DNA of 64,000 bases from Buxus sempervirens (Eukaryota; Streptophyta; Magnoliopsida; Buxales; Buxaceae), in assembly GCA_947561395.2 (NCBI GenBank), contig OX387185.1, positions 38,048,213 through 38,112,212 of the forward strand. The letters run 5' to 3'. Positions 4,788 to 59,798 of this stretch are shown here, in pieces. Numbering within the stretch: position 1 is the stretch's first letter; each line of letters opens with the position of its first letter. The position numbers were made by a program, and so were the translations under genes. Below the pieces are notes generated by a model. That model saw only the letters and a list, made by a program, of their open reading frames with translations. It was not told the DNA's origin and did not search any database.

Positions 4788-5887
4788 GTTGTGAGACATG
4801 GAAAAAATCAAATCCAATGACTTCCTCAATCATCACACGAGATTAAATAAAACAAAGAGTCGCCACCATTCAATTTAGGTGTGAATGGACACCAAAATAT
4901 TAAATAAGCACAAAAGGCAATTTTTAGGGTAAAAATAACCCTCCTAAAAAAAACAACCAGAGATGGGTAAGGGGATTAGGTTATGAACAGGGGAAGGTGT
5001 TAGGCACCCCTATTCATCCACACAAGGTGGTTGCCAGGTATTGTTCATGTTAAAATAAAGGAAAAAGGCTTGCTATAAAATTCACGAAAAATCACAAAAA
5101 AGACAAAATATATGGTTTTTTCATATGAAAAGTCTGATTGATCCAGAACTTTCAAATATGATCATACCATTCCTAGGGTTTCATGATCAAAATAAATTTG
5201 AGATAAAATCAAATAAAATCAATTTAAAGTGAAAAATCCAAAAATCTGGCTTCAAATCAAATTCTAGAAATCTAGAAAAATATGATTTTTATAAAATATT
5301 TCAAAATTGAACTGTAACGCCCCGGATCCGAGTCACGAAATAACACCGTAACTCATCCCCGGAGGTTAATTTAAAACACAGGATCGCAATATCAGAGTGA
5401 AGGAAAAACATGAATACAGCAATAGCTATATAAAAGAGTGCGCTAAAATATTCCCCAAACTAAAAATAAAACTCACATGTCCAAGTAACTACCTGCAAGT
5501 ATCGAGCTCTCCAAGAGTATCTGAAAACAAAACGAAAGCAACGGGGTGAGATACGAATATCCCAGTGAGCAGCACATGCATGCACAAATACATTTATTTC
5601 AGTTCTAAAACATGCCACGGTTATAAACCATATACAATGATGATAACACACATATTCCGAATAATCCGACTAAACTTCAATAATCCAATTCATATCAGAG
5701 CGGAAAACCATCAGGTAAATCAAGCAATAACAATCCGTTTACAATCCCGAAGCTATCAATAAAATAATGATTAACTGAGAACAACATAGCAATTAACCAT
5801 AATTTCGTATCTCAAGATATAATTCCAGATATACCAATATCATATAACACAAAGTCTTCTCATAACCATGCCCACGCCTCCAAATGT

Positions 5888-6312
5888 ATATCCGGCCTAC
5901 TTAGGGTTTCGGATATTGAAATGACTGCGTCATCCAATGCAGGCCTACTCCCCGGGTTTCTGCATTGACAACCAGGCCTACTCAGGGTTTCTAGCTGCTC
6001 TACACCGGTGGGAGGTACAATACCCAATAATTGGTAAACGATATTCCATGAACCATAAATACCAACAAACCAGCGAATAAAACATATCACGTCGAATAAA
6101 ATCAAATACCAACATTGGTCAATGTCATGACTATTGTTTAGTTGATAAATTAAACATGCCAAGTAGACACTCCACACCTCCACGTACACAGTTCCGGCCT
6201 ACTCAGGGTTTCGGAAACTCTGAAATGACGGCCTACTCAGGGTTTCGTCATCCAATGCAGGCCTACTCCCCGGGTTTCTGCATTGACAACCAGGCCTACT
6301 CAGGGTTTCTGG
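5888..6312. repeat. Hairpin array with constant loop and variable stems (Tekay LTR copy A)
   Basis: Two sub-arrays (5888-5994 and 6192-6312) repeat the segment GCCTACTCAGGGTTT (variants with TTAGGG or CCCCGGG). Each copy is bracketed by different but complementary arms: ATATCCG/CGGATAT (5888-5916), CAATGCAG/CTGCATTG (5935-5967 and 6253-6285), TTCCG/CGGAA (6192-6216), ATGACG/CGTCAT (6225-6251), CCAG/CTGG (6290-6312). One arm pair, at 5972-5994, has a mismatch. Confidence 0.85.
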
Positions 6313-7326
6313 CTGCTCTACACCGGTCGTGGCAACACACAAGGCCATGCAATTTCAACAACCAACAATAACACTACATTACTAAGCTTAGACTCTGGAT
6401 CCAGGACAAGCTAAACCAGTAGTAAGTATAAAATTAGCAAATCAACCCAATGTATTTTCCATCATGTAAAACTGATATATATAGATCAACGTGTTCAAGT
6501 GCATACCATATGTCACTCAGGACCAGCTTACTCGCTCATGGAGTCCTCAAAGAAATTCTCAAATAATTTACCAGAACAGAATAAGATATGATTCTAAACC
6601 AACCACCGATATAAAACAATATTCAAGTAAATCATTCCTGAAGTGCACCGTGCATTCAAAGGTGAACTAGTATAATAGTGTAGATGTATTTCAGCAAAAC
6701 AATATGGTTTCAAAACTGACTTTTCAGAATAAAGCACAATATACAGAAATGATTTCAGCATCCAAACTTCGATTAAACATAATTCAGCAAAACATCTCCT
6801 AGATTCTCAATTTCGCTTTCATAATCCAAATCAATCAAAACGAATGTTGTAAAGGCTTCAAAACACATTTGGATGAGTGGAATAGTCTTAGGATCTCCTA
6901 TAAGGTCACCATACCAAAAAGCAATCAATTCTGAGACAAAAAGTTTCGGACCTCAAAATATTCTAAGTCTAGTTAAAAACGTTGACTTTTGGTATATAAT
7001 TTTTCTAGACAAATCTACAAGGAGTTTCGGGCTCAAATTTTGGTTGTAGTCTATTGAAGGATAAACACATCTCCTAGAATTTTATGGGCTCCTGAATCAC
7101 TCATCTGGGTATTAAACCCAAACCGGGCTTTTTGATAAAAACCGGGATTTAGGCATGAACTGGAAAGTTGACTTTTTATTGGCTAGGAATTAGACCTTGG
7201 AAGTATTTTTATTGGTTCCAAATGGGGGGTAAAACCTTATTTACATGTAAAGACTTAAGTAAATGGAGCAATAAATACACAGGTGAGCGCCAGTCGGCGG
7301 ATAGGAAACAGGCTAAAATCGACTAT

Positions 7327-7501
7327 GCGCTCACTCGACGCTAAGTGAGCGCGAGCTGAGCGAGAGAAGGGCGCGAGAAGGGCGCGGGATAGGCACGAGA
7401 TAGGTGCATCTAATTTAAGTGGCCGCGAGCTGAGCGCCAAGTGGGCGCGAGCTCGGCGCCAGGTCAATATTTCTATGCGCCTACTTCCCGAAGTGGGCGC
7501 A
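7327..7501. repeat. GC-rich hairpin block (Tekay LTR copy A)
   Basis: GCGCTCAC at 7327-7334 pairs with GTGAGCGC at 7345-7352. TGCGCCTACTT at 7476-7486 pairs with AAGTGGGCGCA at 7491-7501 (11 bp, one G-U, CCCG loop). The stretch between is rich in gcgc, gagc and gggcgc words and much more GC-rich than the rest of the LTR. Confidence 0.75.
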
Positions 7502-9152
7502 AGTGGGCGCCAAGTGGGCGGATACCCACTGCGATTTTCAAGTCTCTGTTATTTCGAGATCTCCATGTTTGGCTGATTTGTTTTGGTCTGTAATTGTTCC
7601 AATACACTCCCAATGTTCCCAGAATACTTCCCAACCAGTTTTGGATTTAATCTAAACACCTTTAATTTCAAATTGAATTTCAATCTCACGTTTGGACTCA
7701 TGGTATTCCAGAAAACCAGAAAACTCACAATACACCCATGCGTTTCAAAATACATCACGAATAAACTAAAACCTCAGTTGTAAAACAGTGCTACTCACCC
7801 TTATATGCTTATCCCAGAATAAAAGCTCATTCCACAACCGGCCGATCACGATTTCCGGCTGCGCGCGAGGATGTGAAGGTAGCCGAACTATCCCCTGTTC
7901 GCGAGAGGAAAAACCCACTGAAATCTGGATCTCCGACTCCACTAATCCAGTCGTAGCTCTCGCGGTTCTCATCTCTTCCCAGCGAAACCCTAATCGCCAC
8001 AGTAGCCGCAAAACACCAAACGTCTTTAGTTACAAAAATACGATGCGAGCATTCGAAACCAAAAACCTAATTTCCCCTTTAGTATATATACCTTCCACAC
8101 GCTCCCATACGTATTGCCGCACGACAACCTTTTAAAAGCCTTGATCCTGTGCATGCTCGCCCACTGAAAACCCTACATTTTCCCGCATCCACTTAAGCTT
8201 ATTCTCTTTGACAACTAATGACCACAAATCTCCAGCAATAAATAAATTTTGATTAAGCCTGTCCATAAATACATGTGTTCATACTTTTGCATATATTTTA
8301 TTTTATCTACTATTTTATATTGTTTATTATTTTTTTTTTCTACTCAAAACTGGGGTTTTACATTTGAATAGTCCAGGATATAGATAAAGCCCAAATTTCA
8401 CATTAAATCAAGAAATAAAAACCAAAAATACCCATGTTAATGAAAAACCCCAAAATGGGAGAACTTAGACCGTAGGGTCTTCTCTCAATAATGAAAAACG
8501 ATTTAAAAACCACATCATGAAACCCTAGAATTTATTTTCAGGCTTCTGCATCCAGATCTATCATATTGATCATGATAAATCCAAGATCTTAGCCTAAAAT
8601 CACGAAAATCACAAAAACGGTGTTGTAGGTGCAAAAGTGGTGAAAATCCAAATTTTGGAAAAAAAGTGGGGATCTCATGCTATAAACATTATGGATTCAT
8701 GTTATTCATTCAGATATATCATAAAAAGCATTAAAACATGATCAGGATATTTAAAACAGCCACATCTCACAGATTAGAGCACATGGGCGTCTACCCTACG
8801 GATCCCCCTGTTCTCTTTTCCCCTAGCTCTCTCTTCACGTTTTACGTCTAGAGAGGATTCTTGAGGTACTTGGAGATAGGTTTGGTTATACGAACACAAT
8901 CAGAGGCTTTATTCTAGAAAAAAAAGAAAAACAGATATGGGGTTCTATTCTAGGGATCCACCTGTTCTCTTTTCCCCAGAAGGATATATCCTGATCCTCA
9001 GGATAGAGTCAAAAACAGAGATAATGCCCATCCATAGCCAACCAAGGTGGCTTCAGCGAATAAAAGACATAATTCGCTCATTTAAAGGGATATTGGGCTA
9101 AAGATAAAGCTCAGAAATCGAGAGAAGAATAAAACTCGCACGACTCTTTAGT

Positions 9153-17520: not shown

Positions 17521-17638
17521 ACACCTGTAGACACCCCAAATTGCACCTCAATATAAGAGAACCCTCAAAAAGAATTTTAAATGTTTTATTTGAGCCTTGA
17601 CATGTGTCAAACACTCAAAAACACTCAAAAATGGTGCT

Positions 17639-17900
17639 AACCGTACTAAATGTGCGGTTTTTGAGAATTTGGTCTCAACCGCTCTGTATGTGCGGTTGCG
17701 ACCGCACACACAGCATGGTTGATGTTCATGCTTGTTGCGTGAGCTGCCACGTGGCTTCCGGAAGCTTCGGCTGTTGAGCCACATTGATAGCAATCATGGC
17801 GAGCGTAACTGAATTGGAGCCGCCCTGTATGTGCGGTTGAGGTGAATTTGCATAGAAACCGCACATATAGTGACAGTTCTGTGGAAACCACACTGTGTAT
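17639..17900. repeat. Palindromic AACCG/GCGGTT boxes in the Tat-2 LTR
   Basis: About six boxes of 21 bp, for example those starting at 17639 and 17677, with half sites AACCG and GCGGTT, upstream of the TATA box. Spacing is less regular than in Tat-1 and Tat-3. Confidence 0.75.
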
Positions 17901-19379
17901 GCGGTTTTTGTTGTTTCGGGGATTTGCGAAATGGCTCAATCTCTGAGCCTTATTTACGCATATTACCTTTCTCTCAGGGACTTGAACTCCCTATTTCACC
18001 CTCCGAAACTTGCTAAATTACTCCAATTCAAGCCTTTAGGGAGAATTGGAATAATCTAGAAGAGTTTTTAGGCCTACTCTTGGGACCTTTCTACCTTTGG
18101 CTTGGCCTATAAATAGAGGGGTCCTCCTCTTGCAAATGGCTGACAATTTGAAGCTTAGAAGCTCTGCAAGAAGAGTAGAAACTCTGCTGGATTGTCTACT
18201 CAAAGTTCAAGCTACCTAAGGTAAAGTTCTCTTTAGATTTTTGGTTTCCTCTTTACATTCCAGCAACCTCTCATCTTCTACCTTTCTGTAGTGTAAGGCC
18301 ACTGTCTGTATTTTTGCAACCCCAAACCTCTTTCAAAGTACCTGGGATTTCTCTCTAGCCGTAATACGTGAAGAGAGAGCCTTGGGAAAAATAAGTAGGA
18401 ATGGATCCTCTAGGCTTAGAACCTATAAATGATGAAGAGCATGCTATTTGGTTATTTTGAGCCTATGGATGAATTTTTTGATGTTTATGTATTTTCTTCT
18501 GGAGAAGTTGAGTGAATCCTTGCTCTCAATAGCAATGGATTCCAGACTTCTCCTAGAGAATTGATTTCCACTTATACACACACTTTTCATTATTTTCATC
18601 AAATAGGCTAGATCTAGGATTTCCGTGTCTAATACGGGAAATCTGAGATTATTGGCTTTAGAATGAATGTTAGAACTTCATGAGATGGTTTCTATTGATT
18701 TCCAAGTGTTTTGGTCGAATTCACTTGCACACATGCACCATTTTGGCTTTCTCTTCAAAAATTTTCAAAACAAGGCAGCATCTGTGGCTTGTCTTAGAGT
18801 GCTCATAATTTCATCCTCCGGATGAATTTTTGAGTGATTCCAAAGACATGTGATAGATGTGATGGCCCACTTTATATCTGGAAATTTTCGTTCATTTTTA
18901 TGAAGCCAAATTTTGACACCGTCTGTTCAAAGTCTGTAAGTCAGTTCAGCCCAGATTGCTGAACTTGCCGCTTTGATGGTGCACCATTTGCTCAATTTTA
19001 ATCCGTTTTGAGTGATTTCAGTTTCTGAGTTTTCCTTGAGAAGTCTATTTTCATTTCCAATTAGTTTCAGTAGATTTTGATCTGATTTGTGCCTTGGGTG
19101 CTTAATTGACTCAGAACTGCACGCTGGCATAGTCCAGAGCTAATCTGTGGTCTTCTAGGCCTGTTCAAGAGAGCACACAAGTCACATCTGGATGGAGTTT
19201 GGTGTGAGGCTTATTTTTTTGGAAAGATGGCAAAACATACTTCATCCATGTAAATTTTCATGGATTTTTATGAAGCCAAACTCCACGAATAAGGTTTTGA
19301 AAATGCCTACTCGTCACTTTTTCTGAGTTATAACAACATTGGTGAGAGGCGATTAGGGTTTTGGGCGTTTTGGTTTCTT

Positions 19380-43441: not shown

Positions 43442-43446
43442 AAAGG

Positions 43447-43799
43447 TGTAACGCCCCAGACCCATAACCAGCAAGATATTGTCCGCTCTGGGCCCACGGG
43501 CCCTCACGGATTTGTTCTTAAGGATAACACGAGAAAACTTCCCAGGGGTCACCCATCCTAGTAGTGCTCCCACTCGAGCACGCTTAACTTCAGGGTTCCC
43601 AAGGGATTTAGTCCCGTGTTGTTCCTTAAAAGGCCTCTTGCTAATTTGGGGTCTTAAGACTATTTATAGCATCCCCGAGCGTTGTGGGATCCCAACCATA
43701 TGCACATCCTCGCCTGGTAGCTCGCCACTGTGGTAGCTCGCCCAGGTCTCTCACCCCGCCCACATCACAGCCGCCCACTCAGACAGCCAGGATGTCACA
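43447..43799 (-). repeat. Cassandra LTR with 5S rRNA-like promoter (3' copy)
   Basis: On the minus strand the LTR carries a 5S-like block: A box AGTTAAGCGTGCT (complement of 43577-43589) and C box AGGATGGGTGACC (complement of 43547-43559), 30 bp apart as in 5S genes. This is the hallmark of the Cassandra TRIM family, whose LTRs contain 5S-derived sequence. 5S genes are transcribed by RNA polymerase III through these boxes. Confidence 0.9.
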
Positions 43800-43882
43800 T
43801 ACTCCCCTCCATGGGACAACGCGTCCTCGCGTTGGGCAGAACCCCCACACTTTCCGGTCGGGGCAGGCTCTGATACCATCTC
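43800..43882 (-). mobile_element. Cassandra internal segment with polypurine tract and primer site
   Basis: 83 bp. On the minus strand: GAGA, then TGGTATCAGAGC (43867-43878, fits initiator tRNA-Met), a GC-rich stretch containing AACGCGAGGACGCGTT, then the purine tract GGAGGGGAG just before the 3' Cassandra LTR. No coding sequence, as expected for a TRIM. Confidence 0.85.
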
Positions 43883-44473
43883 TGTAACGCCCCGGATCCG
43901 GGTTACGTAAAATAACCGTAACTCGTACCCGAAGGTTAATTAAAAATCCACAGGATCAACAGAGTAAGGGAAAACATGAAATAAAATAATATAAAGATTC
44001 AAATGCATGAAATCAAGGTTCACTAATTTTCCCCAAAACACTATTCAAAAGTAATACAATGTTCATAATAAAACTCACTAGAGTAAGTAAAACCAACTAC
44101 TAAGGATCTACTCAATAAAATAATCCTCCTCACGATACTCCGGATAGTCCACCGGAATATCAACCCCCACGGTATCGTCCTCGCGGAAATCTGAAAACAA
44201 AACAAAGCAGTGAGATACGACTATCTCAGCAAGTAGCAATGCATGCACAAAAATACAGTTATAACAATTCTAAACATGCACAAGTTATAATCAATTAAGT
44301 TACGATTAATCTCGGTTAATCCGACTAATCTCGGAAATACATCGACAATTACAATTTCGGAAAAAAAACATTATATATTGGGACTCATGAAGTTCGTCTA
44401 TTTTGTGTGGCTAAGCACTAGAGTTCCAGACAATCCAGTCTAACACTGCAACAGCTCGAACATCCAATATCGT

Positions 44474-44568
44474 CGCCCTCATGGCGGAAAACTCAAGTGA
44501 CCTCACCATCATGGTGGAAACGGAGTTGCTGCAGCGCTTCCCTCATGGAAGGCCTCTCCATCATGGAG
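44474..44568. repeat. Hairpin array with (C/A)TCAT loops and variable stems (Tekay LTR copy D)
   Basis: Four hairpins: CGCC-CTCAT-GGCG (44474-44486), CACC-ATCAT-GGTG (44504-44516), CTTCC-CTCAT-GGAAG (44537-44551) and CTCC-ATCAT-GGAG (44556-44568). Inner CC/GG and the loop are constant; outer pairs change together. Confidence 0.85.
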
Positions 44569-45514
44569 GAAACGCATGAGGGAACCCCAGACTTAAATCC
44601 AAACAAAATATACAAATTCACTACAACTAGACTGTGGATCCACACTAAGTCTCACCCTTAGTACTAGGCAAAAGATATCGTATATCAAGTAAATTTATCT
44701 TAATAACCATGCTTATGATAAAAGAAGACATTTTGTAGTGAAAAATATCAATTTCGGTTTCGTGTACTCATTAAAACCATCCAACAGAAATATTTCAGCA
44801 TTTAATACTACTTTAGAAATACTCTTAATATCATTCCCCGGAATAAATGAACACGTGAAGAATTCATAAGTAAAACATTTCAGGTAACCATGAAATTCAG
44901 CAATATTAATGTAAGATTAAAACAATTCCATAATTCCTAAAACTTAGTCCTCCTAACTTAAAGTGCAGAATTTGTTTATTTCTTTACTAATTGAGTGTTA
45001 AACCACTCATGCTCAAAAACTTCTGCAGATCACCAACAGCAATGAAGTCCCATCGAACCAATATATATAACAAGAAAATCTGATATGATAATTTCCCTTT
45101 TAAGTGCAAGAAATCAGATTTTGCTCATTTTATCCATATGTTCTCAACATCCGTTTCTCCTGAATTTATTGTCTATAAGGAATTGCCATAGGTTTCTAAT
45201 ACGGCGGAAAACCTTGATTTATCACTACGTAGCTCAGATACAGCAACTACAAAGTTAATATCATCATAAGTTTAAAGAGTCACCATATTTGCTGCAAACA
45301 ATTACAAGAGGTATTCTTATCAAGACTTTTCCATCAAAAATCCCAAATCCATGCTAATATTTGAACTTCACTTGAAATCTATAACTCCAGGTGTTATTTT
45401 GATCTTCTGTAAACTCAATTGAATCGGTCTAAGAAGCTGGAAACCAGGTTACTCTCATGTATCAAACTGCTGTAAATTTCTTTACAAAAAAAAAATATGG
45501 CTCTGATCTACACC

Positions 45515-45604
45515 ATCTGGTGCTAACCTGGTGAGGTTGGCGCCAGATCAAACCCCTAAGTGCCAAGTCGTTTTGAGTCTGGTGCTAACCTCTTTGAGGT
45601 TAGC
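45515..45604. repeat. Two long related hairpins (Tekay LTR copy D)
   Basis: Arms at 45515-45529 and 45534-45548 pair over 15 bp with two G-U pairs (GGTG loop). Arms at 45581-45592 and 45596-45607 pair over about 12 bp with one G-U (TTT loop). Both share a GGTGCTAACCT left arm. Confidence 0.8.
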
Positions 45605-47023
45605 GCCCAATAATGAAAGTTGTCGCCAGGAGTATTAGCTGCACTCAGGCTGTGTAAATCCATTTCTTTCACACCAGTAACATCTTCCTATCTTCCAAAC
45701 AATTCTAGTACAACACCTAGGATTTGATGAACACCAACATACCCCTTCGAAACCATTTTAGAACCAGATTATCATGGCTCATAGGTTAGACATCTTTTTA
45801 CTAATGAATTTCTGATTTCATTCGAACACAAATCTAATGTTTCTAATAATCACAAAACCCAAACAAAAACAGCAAATTTTCTTGAAGGTACTACTTACAT
45901 AAAATACCATCTAACTGACCATCTTTAAACTACTGTAAAAGTATTCTAAACAGTGTTATTAAAACAAAATTTTAAACGCCAAAACAGAACCTGGAAATGG
46001 TGTTTCGTTTAATCCAATTCTACCTTTCTATTCGTTCAGGAAACCCCATGAAATCAGGAAATTATCGAAGATGCTACCTGCTGTTCCATTCTCCAGATTT
46101 TTCGGCAGGTTCTAGTTCTTCTTTTTGGAACCAAATGCTTCCATTCTAAACATGTCTAACATGATTAACAAGTGATAATTTAAACAACTAACATATCCAA
46201 CCTCACCCAGATTTGGTCAAATCCATAAACCAACAGCACTCATAGAGTAGATGTTGAAAACATGAACAGAAACTGGGCACTTGTTACATTCCAATCTAAG
46301 TTCTACATGGTCACAAACACAACAAAAAAACATGATGTTTTGAAAGGCTACTTGCCTCTTGATTCCCTCTTCACCAAAACAGCAACTCAATGGAGGATCT
46401 TCACGTCTAGAATCTCCAACATAGCAATGGACGACCTCCTCAAACAACAATGTTATTCACATCCAGAATCTCCAAATAGCAAAACTGAACTGAACGTGTC
46501 TTGCTCCAACAGCAATGGACGACCTCCTCTTCTTCCAAGCCAAGGTTTCCTTCTTCTTCTCCAAGCAATCCTCTCCACTCACCTCAACTCTCAGATCTAC
46601 TTTGCATTCGTTTTACCTTCTCCAACATTGAAGTTATTGGTAACGCCCGGAGAGAAAGCAAAGGTTACGATCAGAAAATTCCATACGTTTTAAAAGAAAA
46701 CTGCTTGTCTTCTATTTCTTTTGATCAAGTGTGGTGCCTTACCACCATATCACCTACACCAGCATCCTATTCTCTTTAATACTTTTATTTATCTAATCTT
46801 AAATGAAATATTAGTACCACTAATAGTTAACAAAAATTATTACATATTACTTATTGAATGTTAAAAATTGTATCATAACTTGACTTACCTTAGTTTAGCT
46901 AAATCCAACCTTTAAGAAATTTACCAACTTGCCCTTATGCATTGCTCACCTGAAAGTCCACCACATAAAGAAATAATTTTTTATTAATTATTTCTCAAAA
47001 TAAACCCCAAAAATTTCGGGGTT

Positions 47024-50000
47024 TTACATCCTCCCCCCCCTACAAATAAATTTCGTCCTCGAAATTTTACCTCTAGACGAAAAGAACAATTCCGGGTATT
47101 TTCTTTGCATTTCATCCTCTCGCTCCCATGTAGCTTCTTCAGTGGTGTGGTTCTGCCATAAAACTTTCACCAAAGGTATAACCTTAGTTCGCAAGACTTG
47201 ATCACGCCGATCTAATATTTGAACCGGTCTCTCTTCATAAGATAAATCCTCTTGAATGATTAATGGCTCATAACTGATTACGTGGCTTGGATCTGGAATG
47301 TATCGCCTCAGCATGGATATGTGAAACACATTATGCACTCCTGACAAATGTGCTGGCAAGGCTAACTGATACGCCACTGGATTAACTTCTTTTACAATTT
47401 CAAATGGTCCAATATACCTTGGTGACAATTTTCCCTTCTTCCCAAATCTCATAATACCCTTAGATGGTGAAATCTTCAAGAAAACATTGTCTCCCACTTC
47501 AAATTTTAGCTCTCGCCGTCTATTGTCTGCATAACTCTTCTGACGGCTCTGTGCAGTCAACAATCGCTGTCTAATCAACTTCACCTTCTCAACACTGTCC
47601 TGCACAATCTGAGGACCCAAAAACTGCCTCTCACCAACCTCCTCCCAGCAAACTGGTGATCTACAAGCACGGGCATACAAAGCCTCAAACGGTGCCATCT
47701 GTATACTGGCCTGGTAGCTGTTATTATACGCAAACTCTACCAAGTGCAAATGATTGCTCCAACTACCACTCCAATCCAACACACAACACCGAAGCATATC
47801 CTCCAATGTCTGGATAGTCCTCTCTGACTGACCGTCCGTCTGTGGGTGATAACTGGTGCTGAAACTCAGTTTAGTACCCATGGCATCCTGAAAACTGTTC
47901 CAAAACTGGGATGTAAACCGAGTATCCCTATCTGATACGATGGAGACTGGAACTCCATGCAGGCGTACTATCTCTCGGATATACGTCTCCACCAAAGAAT
48001 CCAAAGTCTGGGTAGTGCGAATAGGAAGGAAATGGGCTGATTTGGTCAACCGGTCTACAATTACCCATATAGCATCCTGCCTCTTTGTAGTGACTGGCAA
48101 CCCAGTTACGAAATCCATAGTGATGTGTTCCCATTTCCACTCAGGAACAGGCAATGGGTGTAATAACCCTGGAGGTCTACGGTGTTCTGCCTTAACCTGC
48201 TGACAGACTAGGCATCTGGACACATACTCAGCTATATCTTTCTTCATCCCAGACCACCAATAAACAATCTTAAGATTCTTATACATTTTAGTGCTACCGG
48301 GATGAACTGCATACCTGGACTTGTGACCTTCCTCCAGAATCACTCTACGAATCTCTGCATCATCTGGTACACAGATCCTGCCTTTAAATCTCAACATGCC
48401 ATCACGGAACTCATAATCACTAGTAGAATCATCACCTTTCTCTACCAAGTCCTTAATGTGCTGTAACCCTGAGTCAGATATTTGCCCCTCTCTAATGCGC
48501 TGAATCAAATCTGGCTCAACATGAACTCTGGCTACAATCCTGCCATTCCCCTGAGGAATAAACTCGCATGGCCAATCCTTAATAGTGTCAACCAAACTAC
48601 ACTGACTGACCATGAAAGAAGCCAAGGTAGCTATCTGGTCCTCTGTACCTCCTCTGCGGCTCAAAGCATCAGCAACCACATTTGCCTTGCCCGGATGGTA
48701 CTGCAATGAAAAATCATAATCTTTAAGAAGATCCATCCACCTTCTCTGCCTCATATTAAGATCCCTCTGTGAGAAAATATATCTCAAACTCTTGTGATCA
48801 GAGTAGATCTCGAACTGTGCACCATATAAATAATGCCGCCAAATCTTAAGTGCGAACACTATGGCAGCTAACTCCAAGTCATGTGTGGGGTAGTTCCTCT
48901 CATGAGAACGCAATAGACGCGATGCATACGCCACAACTCTCCTCTGCTGCATCAGCACACAGCCTAACCCAACTCTAGATGCATCACAATACACTGAAAA
49001 CCCTTCATTCACCGAAGGTACGATCAACACTGGAGCCTCGGTCAATCTCCTCTTCAAATCCTGAAAGCTTTGCTCACAACTATCATCCCAAACAAACTTC
49101 ACCGCTTTCTTAGTCAAGTTAGACAAAGGAGCGGCTATCCTTGAGAAATTTTCAATAAATCTCCGATAATAACCAGCCATACCCAGAAAACTACGCACCT
49201 CAGTCACGGTAGTGGGTCTAGGCCAATCTGCTACTGCCTGAACCTTAGCTGGGTCCACTGCAACTCCATCTCTAGAAACAATATGCCCAAGGAAAGAAAT
49301 CCTCTGTAGCCAAAACTGACACTTACTAAATTTGGCATACAACTGGTGATCCCTCAAAGTCTGTAAAACTGTCCTGAGATGTTGGGCATGCTCCTCTCTA
49401 CTGCGGGAGTAAACCAATATGTCATCTATAAACACTACCACAAAACTGTCAAGGTAGGGATGGAAAACCCGATTCATAAGTTCCATGAAGACAGCTGGGG
49501 CATTAGTTAGCCCAAATGGCATAACTAGAAACTCATAATGCCCATATCTAGTGCGGAAGGCGGTCTTCTCCACATCCTCTGGTGCAACTCTCAACTGGTG
49601 GTATCCAGATCGGAGGTCAATCTTAGAAAACCACGATGCACCCCTCAACTGATCAAACAGGTCATCTATACGAGGTAGTGGATACTTGTTCTTAATCGTC
49701 ACCTGATTCAACCGACGATAATCGATACACATCCGCATGGATCCATCTTTCTTCTGCACAAACAAAACTGGTGCACCCCAAGGTGATACACTCGGTCTAA
49801 TATACCCCTTCTCCAATAATTCATCCACCTGCTTTTTCAACTCTACATACTCTGGCTGAGACATCCTGTATGGTGGTCTAGACACTGGTGTTGTGCCAGG
49901 TATGAGTCGAATCTGAAAATCGACCTCCCTAGGTGGTGGTAATCCTGGCAAGTCATCAGGAAACACGACCAAGTACTCACTGACCACAGACACATCTGTC

Positions 50001-51784
50001 ATACTAAGGGTATCTTCCTTTGGTTCCTCTAACACAATGGAGGCCACTAACTCCACTCTACTAGTCAACCCCTCACATCGGAAACAGTATACTGGCTGAT
50101 CCGGCTGACTCACAGTGATAGTACCTCTGGAACAGTCAATACTGATATAATATTTAAACAACCAATCGATGCCTAAAATCACATCAAATTCCCCAAACTC
50201 CAAAGCTAATAAATCCCCAGGCAGCTCTAACGATCCAAGTCTAATTAAACAATCTCTATATACTTTCTGTACACTAGTGGACTCTCCCAATGGTGTGTGC
50301 ACAGTCATAAGAGTATCCATAGAATCAGGCAATAATCCAATGCGACTAGCACAACACGGTGTAATAAATGAAAGAGATGCTCCAGAATCAAATAAACAAA
50401 TAACTGATCTCCCAGAAATGTAAATAATACCTCCAACCAACTGCGGGGTATCACGCTGCTCCTCCTCCTGAGCACCAACAGCAAACACTCGAGTCTGCTG
50501 TCCCTGAGGTGCCGGTGCAGTCTGCCTCTGTCCGGCTCTAGTTGGTGCCCCTCTACCTCTGAGAGCTCTATCTTGTTGCCCCTGCCTTGTAGGTGCAGGT
50601 GGTACAGGTCTCTCATCACCAGGCCTCTGCCTCTGGAATCGATAAGGTGCCACATCTCTCTGTGGTGCAAAACTGGTATCAGTCTGCAACAATTGATATG
50701 TAGCCGGGTAGGTGCACTCTGCTACATGGTGACCTCTCTGGCCACATCGGAAACAAGCACCAGGTGGGGCAAAGCATGGCCCTGGTACATGCCTCCGACC
50801 ACAACTACGGCATCCATCTCCCTGACTATCCCATCTCGGCCTCTTGTCCCTTCCAGAGACATTCCGCTGCTCAGTACCAAATCTGGTGGGTACACGAGTT
50901 CTACTAGTCTCAGTCCTGCCCCTCTGCATCAACCTCTCAGCTCTCTCTGCCCTCCGAACCAACTCAGCAAACTGAGTGTTCAAAAACACTAACACCTTCT
51001 CCTGAATCTCCGGCCTTAAGCCCTCCTCAAAGTGCTGTATCTTCTCCTCCTCACTAGCCACCATATGTGGAGCAAAACGTGATAATTCCTCAAACTTCGC
51101 CTCATACTGGCCTACAGATAGTGTTCCCTGGGAGATGTGCATAAACTCCCTCGCCTTACCCCGGCGAAACTCAGCTGTGAAATAACGACTGTAAAATAGC
51201 TCCCTAAACTGCCCCCAAGCCATCTGAACAACTGGGGCCTCCCCCCTCATCACACTCTGCCACCAGTGATAGGCTTCCCCCTCTAGCATGAAGGTAGCAA
51301 GCCTCACTCGACTCTCCTCTGAACACTGCATCACATCTAGAATCCTCTCGATCCTCTGTATCCAACGCTCTGCTTCCAAAGGATCAGGCACTCCTCTAAA
51401 TATAGGAGGTCCCATCTTCCGGAACTGCTCCACCTCTCTAAGATGCTGTTGCTGCCCATCAGTACGACCCACCTGTACCTCTCCATGTCCATGCCCATTT
51501 CGGTGGCCATTTCCGTTGCCAGACTGGTTCACCCTCTCCTCACGCTCCATAGTCAAAAGCTGAGTAAGAGTGCCCACTGCAGCCCATATGTCCTCTCCCC
51601 TCTGAGGAGGTGCCTCACGAGGTGCCTCACGTGGTGCCTGAGGTTGGGGCTGCTGGCCCTCAACAGGAACATGGGGCTGCTCAGGAATGTCATCCTGGTA
51701 CAAATCCTCTATTGGGCGAACTCCCCGAGTGCGTGCTTGTGTAACTGGTCGACCTCTGCCAGCCATATCAGCTGCAAACAACAA
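47024..51784 (-). CDS. Tekay/Del chromovirus gag-pol polyprotein, uninterrupted
   Basis: 1586 codons without a stop; the likely start is Met-7 ([10 protein letters not shown]). Order by residue: gag capsid region about 125-290 ([28 protein letters not shown]); CCHC knuckle [14 protein letters not shown] about 344-357; aspartic protease [11 protein letters not shown] about 464; reverse transcriptase about 640-800 ([20 protein letters not shown], catalytic [10 protein letters not shown]); RNase H about 925-1045 ([15 protein letters not shown]); integrase zinc HHCC about 1150-1195, then the D,D,E core ([30 protein letters not shown]); a C-terminal chromodomain about 1515-1567 ([16 protein letters not shown]) that defines chromoviruses and guides integration to chromatin. 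The reading frame crosses the polypurine tract and its TAA stop comes from the first bases of the LTR. All catalytic residues that can be checked are present, so it may be functional. Confidence 0.95.
47029..47042 (-). promoter_or_regulatory. Polypurine tract of the Tekay element
   Basis: The minus strand reads a G-rich run ending GGGGGAGGA directly before the LTR start TGTAAAACC. It would prime plus-strand DNA synthesis. It is also translated as the last codons of gag-pol. Confidence 0.85.
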
Positions 51785-51919
51785 TAATTTAAGTTAGATA
51801 AAATCAATCCCTATATTCCTAAGTGCTATCTAGCGTGTACACAAATTCCGAAGGCCATCCTATAGGTATTTTTATTTCATGCTTCCTTAATATATACTCT
51901 GTTGCTCTGATACCATCTC
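51785..51919 (-). promoter_or_regulatory. Tekay leader and primer binding site
   Basis: The minus strand has TGGTATCAGAGC (51904-51915, initiator tRNA-Met type) preceded by GAGA (51916-51919), then a short untranslated leader before gag. Confidence 0.85.
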
Positions 51920-51948
51920 TGTATCGTTCCAATTTTATCGGATGTCTT
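51920..51948 (-). other. 29-bp junction segment between Cassandra LTR and Tekay leader
   Basis: The minus strand ends GGAACGATACA just before GAGA and the primer site, like an LTR 3' end, yet it differs from the end of the attached Tekay LTR (GGGGCGTTACA). It may be a leftover of another Tekay subfamily LTR. Confidence 0.6.
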
Positions 51949-52302
51949 TGTAACGCCCCAGACCCATAACCAGCAAGATATTGTCCGCTCTGGGCCCACG
52001 GGCCCTCACGGATTTGTTCTTAAGGATAACACGAGAAAACTTCCCAGGGGTCACCCATCCTAGTAGTGCTCCCACTCGAGCACGCTTAACTTCAGGGTTC
52101 CCAGGGGATTTAGTCCCATGTTGTTCCTTAAAAGGCCTCTTGCTAATTTGGGGGTCTTAAGACTACTTATAGCATCCCCGAGCGTTGTGGGATCCCAACC
52201 ATATGCACATCCTCTCCTGGTAGCTCGCCACTGTGGTAGCTCGCCCAGGTCTCTCACCCCGCCCACATCACAGCCGCCCACTCAGACAGCCAGGATGTCA
52301 CA
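51949..52302 (-). repeat. Cassandra LTR with 5S rRNA-like promoter (5' copy)
   Basis: Nearly identical to 43447-43799. A box complement at 52079-52091, C box complement at 52049-52061. In this position the internal promoter points toward the Tekay leader. Confidence 0.9.
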
Positions 52303-52307
52303 AAAGG

Positions 52308-53551: not shown

Positions 53552-54690
53552 CCCTTTTCCCTTTTATTTTCTGTCTTCAATTCTAGATGTAATAGGATCA
53601 TCTCTATTACTGTAGAATAAGGCCATCTTTTGTATCTTGTATTCCTAAACTTGCCTCTAAGTACCTCAAGAGTCTCTCTCGCCGTAAAACGTGAAGAGAG
53701 AGCTAGGGGAAAAGAGAACAGGTGGATCCGTAGGGTAGACCCCCATATGCTGTAATCTGTGAGATGTGGCTATTTTGAATATCATGATCATGTTTTAATG
53801 CTTTTTATGATGAATCTGAATGAATCCATGAATGTATGATGTTTATAGCATGAGATCCCCACTTTTTTTCCAAAATTTGGATTTTCACCACTTTTGCACC
53901 TACGGCACTGTTTTCGTGATTTTTGTGATTTTAGGCTAGGATCTTGGATTTATCATGATCAATATGGTAGATCTGAATCCAAAAGCCTGAAAATAATTAT
54001 ATGGTTTCATGATGTAGTTTTTGAATCCTTTTTCATTATTGAGAGAAGACCCTACGGTCTAAATTCTCCCCTTTTGGTGTCTTCATCAACGTGGGTATTT
54101 TTGGTTTTGATTTTCAGATTTAATGTGAAATTTGGGCTATATCTATGTCCTGGACTATTCAAGTTCAATTTTGAAATATTTTATAAAAATCATATTTTTC
54201 TAGATTTCTAGAATTTGACTTGAAGCCAGATTTTTGGATTTTTCACTTTAAATTGATTTTATTTGATTTCATCTCAATTTTGTTTTGATCATGAAACCCT
54301 AGGAATGGTATGATCATATTTGAAAGTTCTGGATCAATCAGGCTATTCGTATGAAAAAACCATACAATTTTTTTTTATGTGATTTTTCATGAATTTTATA
54401 GCAAGCCTTTTTTCTTTGTAAAACATGAACAATACCTGGCAACCACCTTGTTTGGATGAATAGGGGTGCCTAACACCTTCCCCTGTTCATAACCTAATCC
54501 CCTTACCCATCTCTGGTTGTTTTTTTTAGGAGGGTTATTTTTACCCTAAAATTGCCTTTTGTGCTTATTTAATATTTTGGTGTCCATTCACACCTAAATT
54601 GAATGGTGGCGACTCTTTGTTTTCTATAATCCCGCGTGATGATAGAGGAAGTCAAAGAATTTTTGATTTTTTCCCATGTCTCACAAATTC

Positions 54691-57384: not shown

Positions 57385-59798
57385 TGTGAGACATGGATTC
57401 GTCATCTCGGATGACTTCCGATTATCGTCACGCGGGGATCGATAAAAATAAGAGTCGCCACCATCCATTTTAAGGTGTGAATGGACACCAAAGGGTTCAT
57501 AAATGTCAAATAGAGCCAAAGTAGCTCTAATACAAGGAAAATCCAGAGATTGGGTACGGGGAATTATTTATGAGCGGGGGAAGGTGTTAGGCACCCCCAC
57601 TCATCCGTCTAAGACGGTTACCATATGCTTGCTCATGCTAAGAATTATTTTTCTAACAAAATGGGCAAAAGGATGCTTACAACAAGCACCATGTATGTGA
57701 TCATTCCACATGAGAAGTCTAATGAACTTAGGCTCTCTTTGTGGATTCATCACTTCTAAAACCTCACGAGTGAAGGAAAATCAAAGTAAAATTGAAGAAA
57801 ATCAAGCCAAGGCAAATCTGGAGAAATTGGTCAAAAGAGCTTGAAAACTTTGATAAACCATAACTCATTCAATTTAAATCCAAATCAAATGAAACCATAG
57901 CCATTTGAAAACTGATACATATTAGAATATACAGTAGAAAATTCAGCTCAATCCGATTCAAAACAAAAGAGAAATCCACATATGAAATTTGCTGTTATAA
58001 CTCAGAAAAAGCGTTAAGTAGGCATTTTCAAAGCTCTATTCGTGGAGTTTGGCTCAATAAAAATCCATGAAAATTGGTATGGAGGAAGTATGTAGTGCCA
58101 TCTTTCCAAAGAAAAAGACCTCACACCAATCTCTATCCGGATGTGACTTGTGTGCTCTCTTGAACAGGCCTAGAAGACCACAGATGAGCTCTGGACCATG
58201 CCAGCGAGCACCTCTGAGTCAACTGAGTACCCAAGGCACAAAACAGATTGAAATCTGCTGAAATCAGTTGGAAATGAAAATAGACTTCTCAAAGAAAACT
58301 CAGAAACTGGAATCATAGGAAACGGATTAAAACTGAGCAAATAGTGCACCATCAAAGCGGCAAGTTCAGCAATCTGGGCTGAACTGTCTTACAAACTTTG
58401 AAGAGATGGTACCAAAAATTGGCTACATGGAAGTGGACGAAAATTTCCAGATATTAAGTAGACACATCCATCTATCACATGTCTTTGGAAACACTCAAAA
58501 ATTCATCCGGAGGATGAAGTTATGAGTCTTCCAAGACAGGCCACAGATCTGTCCTGTTTTGAGGTTTTTTGAAGAGGAAACATGGAAACCAGTGCATGTG
58601 TGCATGTCGATTCGACCAAAACCTCAAAATCAATAAAAAACCCTCTCATGAAGTCCTAAAAAACTCATTCTAAGGCCAATGATCTCAGATTTTCCATATT
58701 TACATGGAAATCCAAGATCTAGCCTATTTTGATAAAAAATGGTGGAAAGTGGGTGTGAAGATGTGGAAAATCACATTTTTATGAGAAAGTTGGAATCCAT
58801 GGCTATTGAGAGCATGGATTCACATCTTCTCCAAATACAAAATAACTCAGAGAAGCATTCAAGGGTTCAAAATAACCATATAGCATGCTTTTCATCATTT
58901 GAGGGTTCTAAACCTAGAGGATCCATTCCACCTTCCTTTTCCCCAGGCTCTCTCTTCACGTTTTATGGTTAGAGAGGATTCCCAGGTACTTTAGAAGGGG
59001 TTTGGGGTTACAAAAATGCACAAAAGCCTTACACTACAGAAAGGTAGAAGATGAGAGATTGCTGGAATGTAAAAGGGAAGACTGGAAATGAAAGAGAGCT
59101 TTACCTTGGTAGCTTGAGCCTTCAGTAGACAATCCAGCAGAGCTTCTCCTTTTTCTTGCAGAGCTTCTAAGCTTCAAATTGTCAGCCATTTGCAAGAGGA
59201 GGACCCCTCTATTTATAGGGCAAGTCAAGGGTAGAAGAGTCCCAAGGGTAGGCCAAAAGGGCCTTCTAGATTATTCCAATTCTCCTCCAAGGCTTGAATT
59301 GGAGTAATTCAGCAAGTTTCGGAGGGTGAAATAGGGAGTTCAAGTCCCTAAGAGAGAGGTAATATGCGTAAATAAGGCTCAGGGATCGAGCAATTTCGCA
59401 AATCCCCGAAACAGCCAAAACCGTATACTCAGTGCGGTTTCTACACAACCGCCACTCAAAGTGCGGTTCCTGTACAAATTTGACCAAACCGTATATACAG
59501 GGCGGTTCAATTCAGTTATGCTTTAATTGATTGCTGTCCACGCGGCTTAACGGCCGAAGCTTCGCGAAGCCACGTGGCCGCCAGCACAACAAGCATAGAC
59601 CTAAACCGTGCTGTGTGTGCGGTTGCAACCGCACATACAGAGCGGTTGAAACCGAGATTATAAAAACCGCATATTCAGTACGGTTGGCACTAATTCCTAA
59701 AGTTTTTGAAAGTTTGACATATGTCAAGGCTCAAATAAGACATTTAAAGCCCATCTTAGTTAATCTCTTATATTGGGGTGCAATTTGGGGTGTCTACA
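57385..59798 (-). mobile_element. 3' LTR of a Tat-2 element
   Basis: On the minus strand it starts TGTAGACACC at 59798, right after a polypurine tract, and ends TGTCTCACA at 57385. Length 2414 bp. TATA box on the minus strand at 59210-59217; splice donor at 59096-59104. The element body extends rightward past the window edge, so its other duplication copy cannot be checked. Confidence 0.9.
59419..59685. repeat. Palindromic AACCG/GCGGTT boxes in the Tat-2 3' LTR
   Basis: Boxes start at 59419, 59447, 59487, 59604, 59627 and 59665. The first step is 28 bp; later steps are less regular. They lie upstream of the TATA box in element orientation. Confidence 0.75.

Follow-up and report, generated by a model that had tools for sequence, protein, structure and literature searches.

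The window that we analysed is a 64,000-nt stretch of the Buxus sempervirens assembly GCA_947561395.2 (contig OX387185.1, forward strand, 38,048,213 to 38,112,212). Between 43447 and 52302 it holds a composite retroelement whose structure we confirmed to be real: a pair of Cassandra LTRs, flanked by the duplication AAAGG, encloses an intact gag-pol frame with a Tekay-like leader, a single complete Tekay-like LTR and the Cassandra interior. Apart from the duplication, all parts lie on the reverse strand, and we describe them from high to low coordinates. The high-side target site duplication (TSD; 52303..52307) is followed by the 354-bp 5' Cassandra LTR with its 5S-like promoter (51949..52302), an AA that equals the native spacer between a Cassandra LTR and its primer binding site (PBS) (51947..51948), nt 12-42 of U6 snRNA (51916..51946), and the Tekay PBS TGGTATCAGAGC (51904..51915), after which comes its leader. 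The gag-pol frame (47024..51784; 1586 aa) is listed from a TTG, with the first ATG 18 bases later, and its stop codon falls within the first bases of the Tekay-like LTR. Next are the Tekay purine tract GTAGGGGGGGGAGGA (47029..47043), the complete Tekay-like LTR (43883..47028; 3146 bp, TGTAAAACCCC...GGGGCGTTACA), a GAGA spacer (43879..43882), a second TGGTATCAGAGC (43867..43878), the Cassandra interior downstream of that site, which matches native Cassandra interiors and ends in the purine tract GGAGGGGAGTA (43800..43866), the 353-bp 3' Cassandra LTR, also with a 5S-like promoter (43447..43799), and the low-side AAAGG (43442..43446). The two outer LTRs differ by four substitutions and a 1-base gap. 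The first-pass annotation of this DNA had described the Cassandra LTRs with 5S-like promoters, the AAAGG outside both of them, and the gag-pol with one full Tekay LTR inside, all of which held up; its view that the whole integrated as one unit is supported as well.

Both outer LTRs carry box A and box C, spaced 18 nt apart, in exact agreement with the Cassandra query published in PMC7215508. Their Rfam 5S scores are 30.5 and 29.2 bits, below the gathering score of 38, and over the window neither Rfam at its gathering threshold nor ARAGORN gave a match. Cassandra is recognised by 5S-like boxes about 18 nt apart together with the primer site TGGTATCAGAGC, and we found both, the primer site of the 5' LTR being within range with the U6 piece intervening. 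Cassandra is also defined by having no coding capacity between its LTRs. Because a gag-pol frame of 1586 aa sits between the outer LTRs here, the unit is a composite rather than a plain Cassandra. That frame contains gag, protease, RT, RNase H and integrase in the gypsy order, as in a Ty3/gypsy chromovirus; the match to a C-terminal chromodomain is weak (20.0 bits against a cut-off of 25.1). Tekay is the lineage name given in the first-pass annotation, and we use it for a putative placement.

The first-pass annotation had not mentioned what lies between the leader primer site and the 5' Cassandra LTR; we found there 31 sense-strand bases of U6 snRNA, together with the Cassandra AA spacer. The U6 bases are identical (31/31) to nt 12-42 in all four U6 genes that we read from the B. 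sempervirens genome, and this identity to the host gene is what marks a U6 retrocopy; 26 of them match a published rice U6 probe. Rfam scores the piece at 24.3, below the gathering score of 44, covering model positions 1-47 of 105. The word TACAGAGA joins U6 to the primer site and is common to U6 and the Tekay LTR end, and the last bases of the piece are common to the Tekay spacer. In the 676.5-Mb genome the U6/PBS junction occurs once when up to three mismatches are allowed, with no occurrence of the reversed control, and in the window U6 is present beside the 5' LTR only. A conserved U6 feature of the Tekay family is thus unsupported in this genome, where the junction was found once. U6 as a primer was rejected, since antisense U6 would be expected in that case, and the AA at the U6 join is the native Cassandra spacer instead of filler. 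Viral contigs scanned for the junction and for U6 gave no matches, and one stretch found in them with an RT piece was unconfirmed by tblastn.

The AA spacer is carried by 51 of the 52 exact native-type Cassandra matches, and for this reason we place the left join at the LTR/PBS boundary and the right join, where the Tekay-like LTR gives way to Cassandra, within the PBS. GAGA after a Tekay-like LTR end is also found at C6:32753042-32753059, and GGGGCGTTACA with the primer site is common to Tekay and Cassandra. The junction at 43883 had been ascribed to crossover or template switching at the LTR end and adjacent primer site; template switching there is supported, and the point of exchange itself moves into the primer site, given that the spacer is GAGA and not AA.

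Similar fusions elsewhere in the genome suggest that Cassandra and a Tekay-like element have been copied and inserted together. A Tekay-like LTR lies upstream in 6 of the 44 Cassandra interiors that we read (five of 43, plus the window), always joined at the primer site. Scoring covered 40 of 1489 candidates, and because its query included 18 bases of Tekay LTR it may be biased towards composites. Two of six matches in one search (L020 and L021) are native Cassandra variants and were left out of the composite count. Perfect 5-bp duplications (AAAGG, TGGCC, CCACA, CAATG and TTTTA) surround the whole unit in five of six composites, a count that leaves out a seventh, C15; these five units are on four contigs. 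The search for further copies with the same two junctions and a different duplication, as proposed in the first-pass annotation, was positive at C10:853319-863663 (C10b), where Cassandra outer LTRs differing by five substitutions enclose gag-pol pieces within a TGGCC duplication. Its Tekay-like partner is a different one from that of the window (63% amino acid identity in gag, 82-86% in pol). In a tree of 19 LTRs the outer Cassandra LTRs are sisters in the window (93/87), in C10b (91/93) and in C11 (81/85), with none of the three pairings attaining the tree's starred level.

In C11 and C4, one integration joined a Cassandra U5 end with a Tekay-like U5 end. With its two Cassandra LTRs as ends C11 gave no TSD, and the match came after the abutting inverted Tekay LTR had been added to the unit; for C4 and C10a, too, the unit ends were set only once the inverted LTR copies were known. 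By blastn the C4 LTR does not match the Tekay LTR of the window, and only its end motif marks it as Tekay-like; the C10a partner has no encoded protein resembling that of the window. The remaining composite, C6b, is a concatemer spanning at least 26.9 kb, and its outer ends could not be defined.

Judging from sequence, we think it quite likely that the window composite is a chimeric cDNA made by template switching of reverse transcriptase among co-packaged Cassandra RNA, Tekay-lineage RNA and U6 snRNA, and inserted once by one integrase. From what is observed, namely the anatomy, the U6 piece, the LTR/PBS junctions, the whole-unit TSDs and the recurrence with different Tekay-like partners, we infer a stepwise route. 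Minus-strand synthesis would begin on Cassandra, run past its primer site and transfer onto Tekay via the common primer site, after which the Tekay LTR would be copied by the usual R-to-R transfer, followed by gag-pol. At the Tekay primer site and spacer, synthesis would jump to U6 at TACAGAGA, copy it back to nt 12, within the base of its 5' stem-loop, and jump from there to a Cassandra LTR end, whose purine tract would set the left terminus. Integrase would then join both Cassandra ends to the target. The switching would thus take place at U5/PBS, in the window via U6. To finish on the left with a full Cassandra LTR, this route requires an extra transfer, which is without trace in the sequence.

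Among other explanations, a resident plain Cassandra with the TSD AAAGG could have suffered a break where its 5' LTR meets the PBS and, during repair, taken up a U6-tailed Tekay cDNA. For the window and C10b this would account equally for the TSD and the sister LTRs, but the break would have to fall within a few bases of the LTR/PBS boundary every time, and it misfits C11, C4 and C10a, where the TSD encloses units with Tekay-like or X LTRs at their outer ends, and we consider it unlikely. Still less probable is a post-integration event, either ectopic DNA recombination or gene conversion, between a Tekay element and a Cassandra: the common GGGGCGTTACA and primer site offer short homology, but the 31 bases of sense U6 at the join are left unexplained, and one matching TSD is unexpected after recombination of separate insertions, as argued in PMC1950507, whereas TSDs surround five of six composites. 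It is highly improbable that the two junctions are an assembly artefact, as a chance misjoin is unlikely to put U6 at a shared 8-base word or to surround five units, spread over four contigs, with matched duplications. Least credible is a Tekay nested into a Cassandra with later loss of one Tekay LTR, which the first-pass annotation had already argued against: nested insertions are common in plants according to PMC11899658, but we saw no second or remnant Tekay LTR and no inner duplication in the window composite, GAGA and a primer site come after the Tekay LTR, where native Cassandra has AA, and the same boundaries recur in other composites with other partners.

Under the template-switching reading, the window copy looks like a founder product and not a replicated copy, because U6 sits beside the 5' LTR only. 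Upstream of the gag-pol there is no Tekay LTR; it lies behind a Pol III-type LTR, which may bear on its expression. The earlier proposal that a non-autonomous element thereby gains its own enzymes fared less well: with the U6/PBS junction found in the window alone, no descendant carrying it was seen, and there is no support for a Cassandra lineage that acquired its own enzymes. The composite is best understood as a relic of co-packaging rather than a new autonomous element.

Kojima 2024 (PMC10886601) states that nothing points to the family responsible for moving Cassandra. Tekay-lineage elements are candidate helpers: mixed-end units, with a Cassandra end and a Tekay-like end, would show a single integrase accepting both, and we infer that Tekay-lineage particles and integrase normally mobilise Cassandra. 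On sequence grounds, Tekay-lineage chromoviruses probably help Cassandra in this genome by packaging, reverse transcribing and integrating its RNA, with U6 snRNA also present in these particles and serving as a template by accident. Composites with one TSD and mixed ends are physical records of reverse transcription and integration shared by Cassandra and Tekay-like elements, and therefore a census of these units across the genomes of other plants offers a test of the helper question. A spliceosomal RNA, as the U6 piece suggests, was accessible to the reverse transcriptase of a plant LTR element; in retroviral particles, about one U6 per virion is reported for MLV and RSV in the review PMC4997597.

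Abnormal template switching between co-packaged RNAs has been proposed for complex LTR insertions, and VejuL and BARE2 were apparently formed by switching between different packaged RNAs (PMC1950507). The complexes of Sabot and Schulman 2007 (PMC1950507) have, like the window composite, three LTRs, two interiors, one whole-unit TSD and similar outer LTRs, and the window composite shows an internal LTR, two interiors, a flanking TSD and outer LTRs from one cycle. However, each of their four complexes (two Angela-like, one Squiq, one Opie) is named to a single family, whereas here a TRIM is combined with Tekay-like elements whose LTRs are unrelated to its own, one join contains a cellular U6 piece, and two units used mixed ends in a single integration. 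Tandem arrays of LTR retrotransposons and Cassandra, for which template switching is one suggested origin, are known from the accessible portions of PMC11899658 and PMC7215508; their interiors also share internal LTRs and a TSD is present, but they repeat one family, and a Cassandra-Tekay join is not seen in those portions. The U6/LINE-1 chimeras of PMC4476161 and PMC13174262, as far as the available excerpts describe them, likewise have sense U6 on the 5' side of a retroelement, formed by template switching, but they involve LINE machinery and full-length U6, and internal entry is described there as never observed, whereas in the window composite the entry into U6 was internal, at ACAGAGA, and made by an LTR element. 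According to PMC4476161, Giles et al. 2004 found a small number of old snRNA copies with LTR elements. Finally, in Gao 2016 (PMC4717578), 11 of 289 subfamilies have larger related elements, and these coding elements share the LTRs of the TRIM (79-98% similar) and, in the worked example, its interior as well, whereas the window composite has its coding part and one internal LTR from an LTR family unrelated to the TRIM.

The composite in the window reads along the minus strand. Its 5' outer LTR (52302-51949) and its 3' outer LTR (43799-43447) each carry a box A and a box C with an 18-nt spacer that are exact to the published Cassandra query, and because of this match we identify both as Cassandra. 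Between them, in order and all on the minus strand, are an AA spacer (51947-51948), a 31-base piece of U6 without mismatch (51946-51916), a Tekay-like primer site and leader, an intact gag-pol frame (51784-47024), a purine tract, a complete Tekay-like LTR of 3146 bp (47028-43883), and then GAGA, a primer site and Cassandra interior. AAAGG flanks the unit on both outer sides. The coding part comprises gag, protease, RT, RNase H and integrase with a weak chromodomain match, and we assign it provisionally to the Tekay lineage. Elsewhere in the window, a solo LTR of Tekay-like type, about 3050 bp long (5313-8364) and showing no clean flanking duplication, lies inside a repeat whose empty version occurs inverted at 54162, and a 1.8-kb inverted repeat pair with 84% identity occupies 17526-19338 and 57990-59798.

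This structure is real and recurs in the genome. A 461-base query, which included 18 bases of Tekay LTR and may therefore favour composites, gave 1489 candidate places, of which 40 were scored and read (the window and 39 others). These held 44 Cassandra interiors with a matching 5' part, preceded by a Cassandra LTR in 37 cases, by an inverted Cassandra LTR in 1 (C3:40023000-40024800, where it is joined to a Cassandra unit), and by a Tekay-like LTR in 6, namely the window and 5 of the 43 interiors outside it. An exact pattern search returned 52 native-type and 6 Tekay-type matches, the latter being four composites and two Cassandra variants; one of the four, at C15:6415470, adds a seventh composite, whose Cassandra LTR has diverged further (87%). 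On contig C10 (20169900-20173700), Cassandra copies in both orientations form a dense array.

Composite C10b (C10:853319-863663) runs Cassandra LTR, AAGA, primer site, leader, gag, pol, Tekay-like LTR, Cassandra interior, Cassandra LTR, with the TSD TGGCC and no U6 at its left join; its proteins match those of the window at 63% (gag) and 82-86% (pol) of amino acids, with a frame change near the RT end. C11 (27090261-27097471) has the same order with an inverted Tekay-like LTR in front, another gag (57% of amino acids), and no pol match. No TSD match was found with our first definition of its ends, but CCACA encloses the whole unit, which is bounded by a Tekay-like U5 end on one side and a Cassandra U5 end on the other. 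The same two kinds of end lie outside in C4 (56915161-56920907, TSD CAATG); its foreign LTR is Tekay-like on the end motif only. In C10a (C10:6241937-6252137, TSD TTTTA), a partner element, X, holds Cassandra interior and LTR and part of an inverted X LTR lies at the end; X has no match to the window gag-pol, the longest stop-free stretch of its interior is 460 codons, antisense, and its direct LTR pair is 3 substitutions and 2 gaps apart. In C10a, C4 and C11 the inverted LTR copy is part of the composite and the TSD lies outside it, and self-integration or snap-back cDNA may have been involved. C6b (C6:32738864 to at least 32765800, at least 26.9 kb, ends undefined) alternates direct and inverted X-type LTRs and interiors, encloses a single Cassandra unit as well as a Tekay-like pol, and resembles a retrotransposon cDNA concatemer. 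A whole-unit TSD is thus present in five of six composites, C6b having no defined ends and the seventh being outside the count. With equal base use, any one such 5-base match would arise by chance about once in 1024, and the unit ends of C4 and C10a were set only after the inverted copies had been noticed.

AA separates LTR and primer site in 6/6 native Cassandra copies read and in 51 of the 52 native-type matches, so the AA at 51947-51948 belongs to Cassandra and the left join falls at the primer-site boundary. The sole GA spacer, at C21:14933048, is possibly another recombinant. The right join has a GAGA spacer, as is also found after the Tekay-like LTR end at C6:32753042-32753059, and this places the crossover inside the primer site.

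A permissive Rfam scan detected U6 at 51963-51914 on the minus strand (24.3 bits, E 0.013), below the gathering score of 44. The 31 bases contain a published 26-nt rice U6 probe (PMC12608615). Of 48 scored host candidates, 47 U6 matches were listed, 45 above cut-off, with U6-like copies clustered at C3:1232581-1410818. In all four host loci read, the 31 bases are nt 12-42 of U6 and are followed by AGATTAGC, not by a primer site. The copy appears to end at nt 12, within the 5' stem-loop, counting from the U6 start GTCTCTTCGGAGAC at host loci. TACAGAGA occurs both in U6 and in the Tekay LTR end plus spacer found at the right junction. Across the whole genome, the U6/PBS junction word matched only the window with up to 3 mismatches, and its reversed control matched nothing.

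Co-packaging and template switching best explain the composites. A single TSD round mixed units indicates that the chimeric cDNA predates integration, and the mixed ends that one integrase took both. Strand transfers take place at U5/PBS, where the composite joins sit, and a minus strand templated on U6 would yield U6 in sense. The sister outer LTRs fit one reverse-transcription cycle; they differ at 4 of 353 positions in the window and 5 of 355 in C10b, or about 0.4-1.0 My at rates of 1.3e-8 to 7e-9 per site per year. When an LTR element is reverse transcribed in the usual way, the stretch between R and the primer site ends up in both LTRs. U6 adjoins only the 5' Cassandra LTR in the window composite, so this copy does not descend from a leader-PBS-primed element of like anatomy, and it looks like a primary product. 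The first-pass annotation's view of one mobilised unit holds; there is no support for its proposal that the Cassandra lineage acquired enzymes.

In the literature covered (titles and abstract openings, few subscription papers), we found neither a Cassandra-Tekay composite nor a plant LTR element containing part of U6. Published work describes U6 joined to LINEs (PMC4476161, PMC13174262), retroviral packaging of U6 (PMC4997597), recombination between Onsen family members during transposition (PMC5668417), a Cassandra helper that is still unknown (PMC10886601), and tandem Cassandra, which was thus already known (PMC7215508). Template-switching complexes with a single TSD were also already known from a paper that attributes VejuL and BARE2 to probable switches from one kind of packaged RNA to another (PMC1950507).
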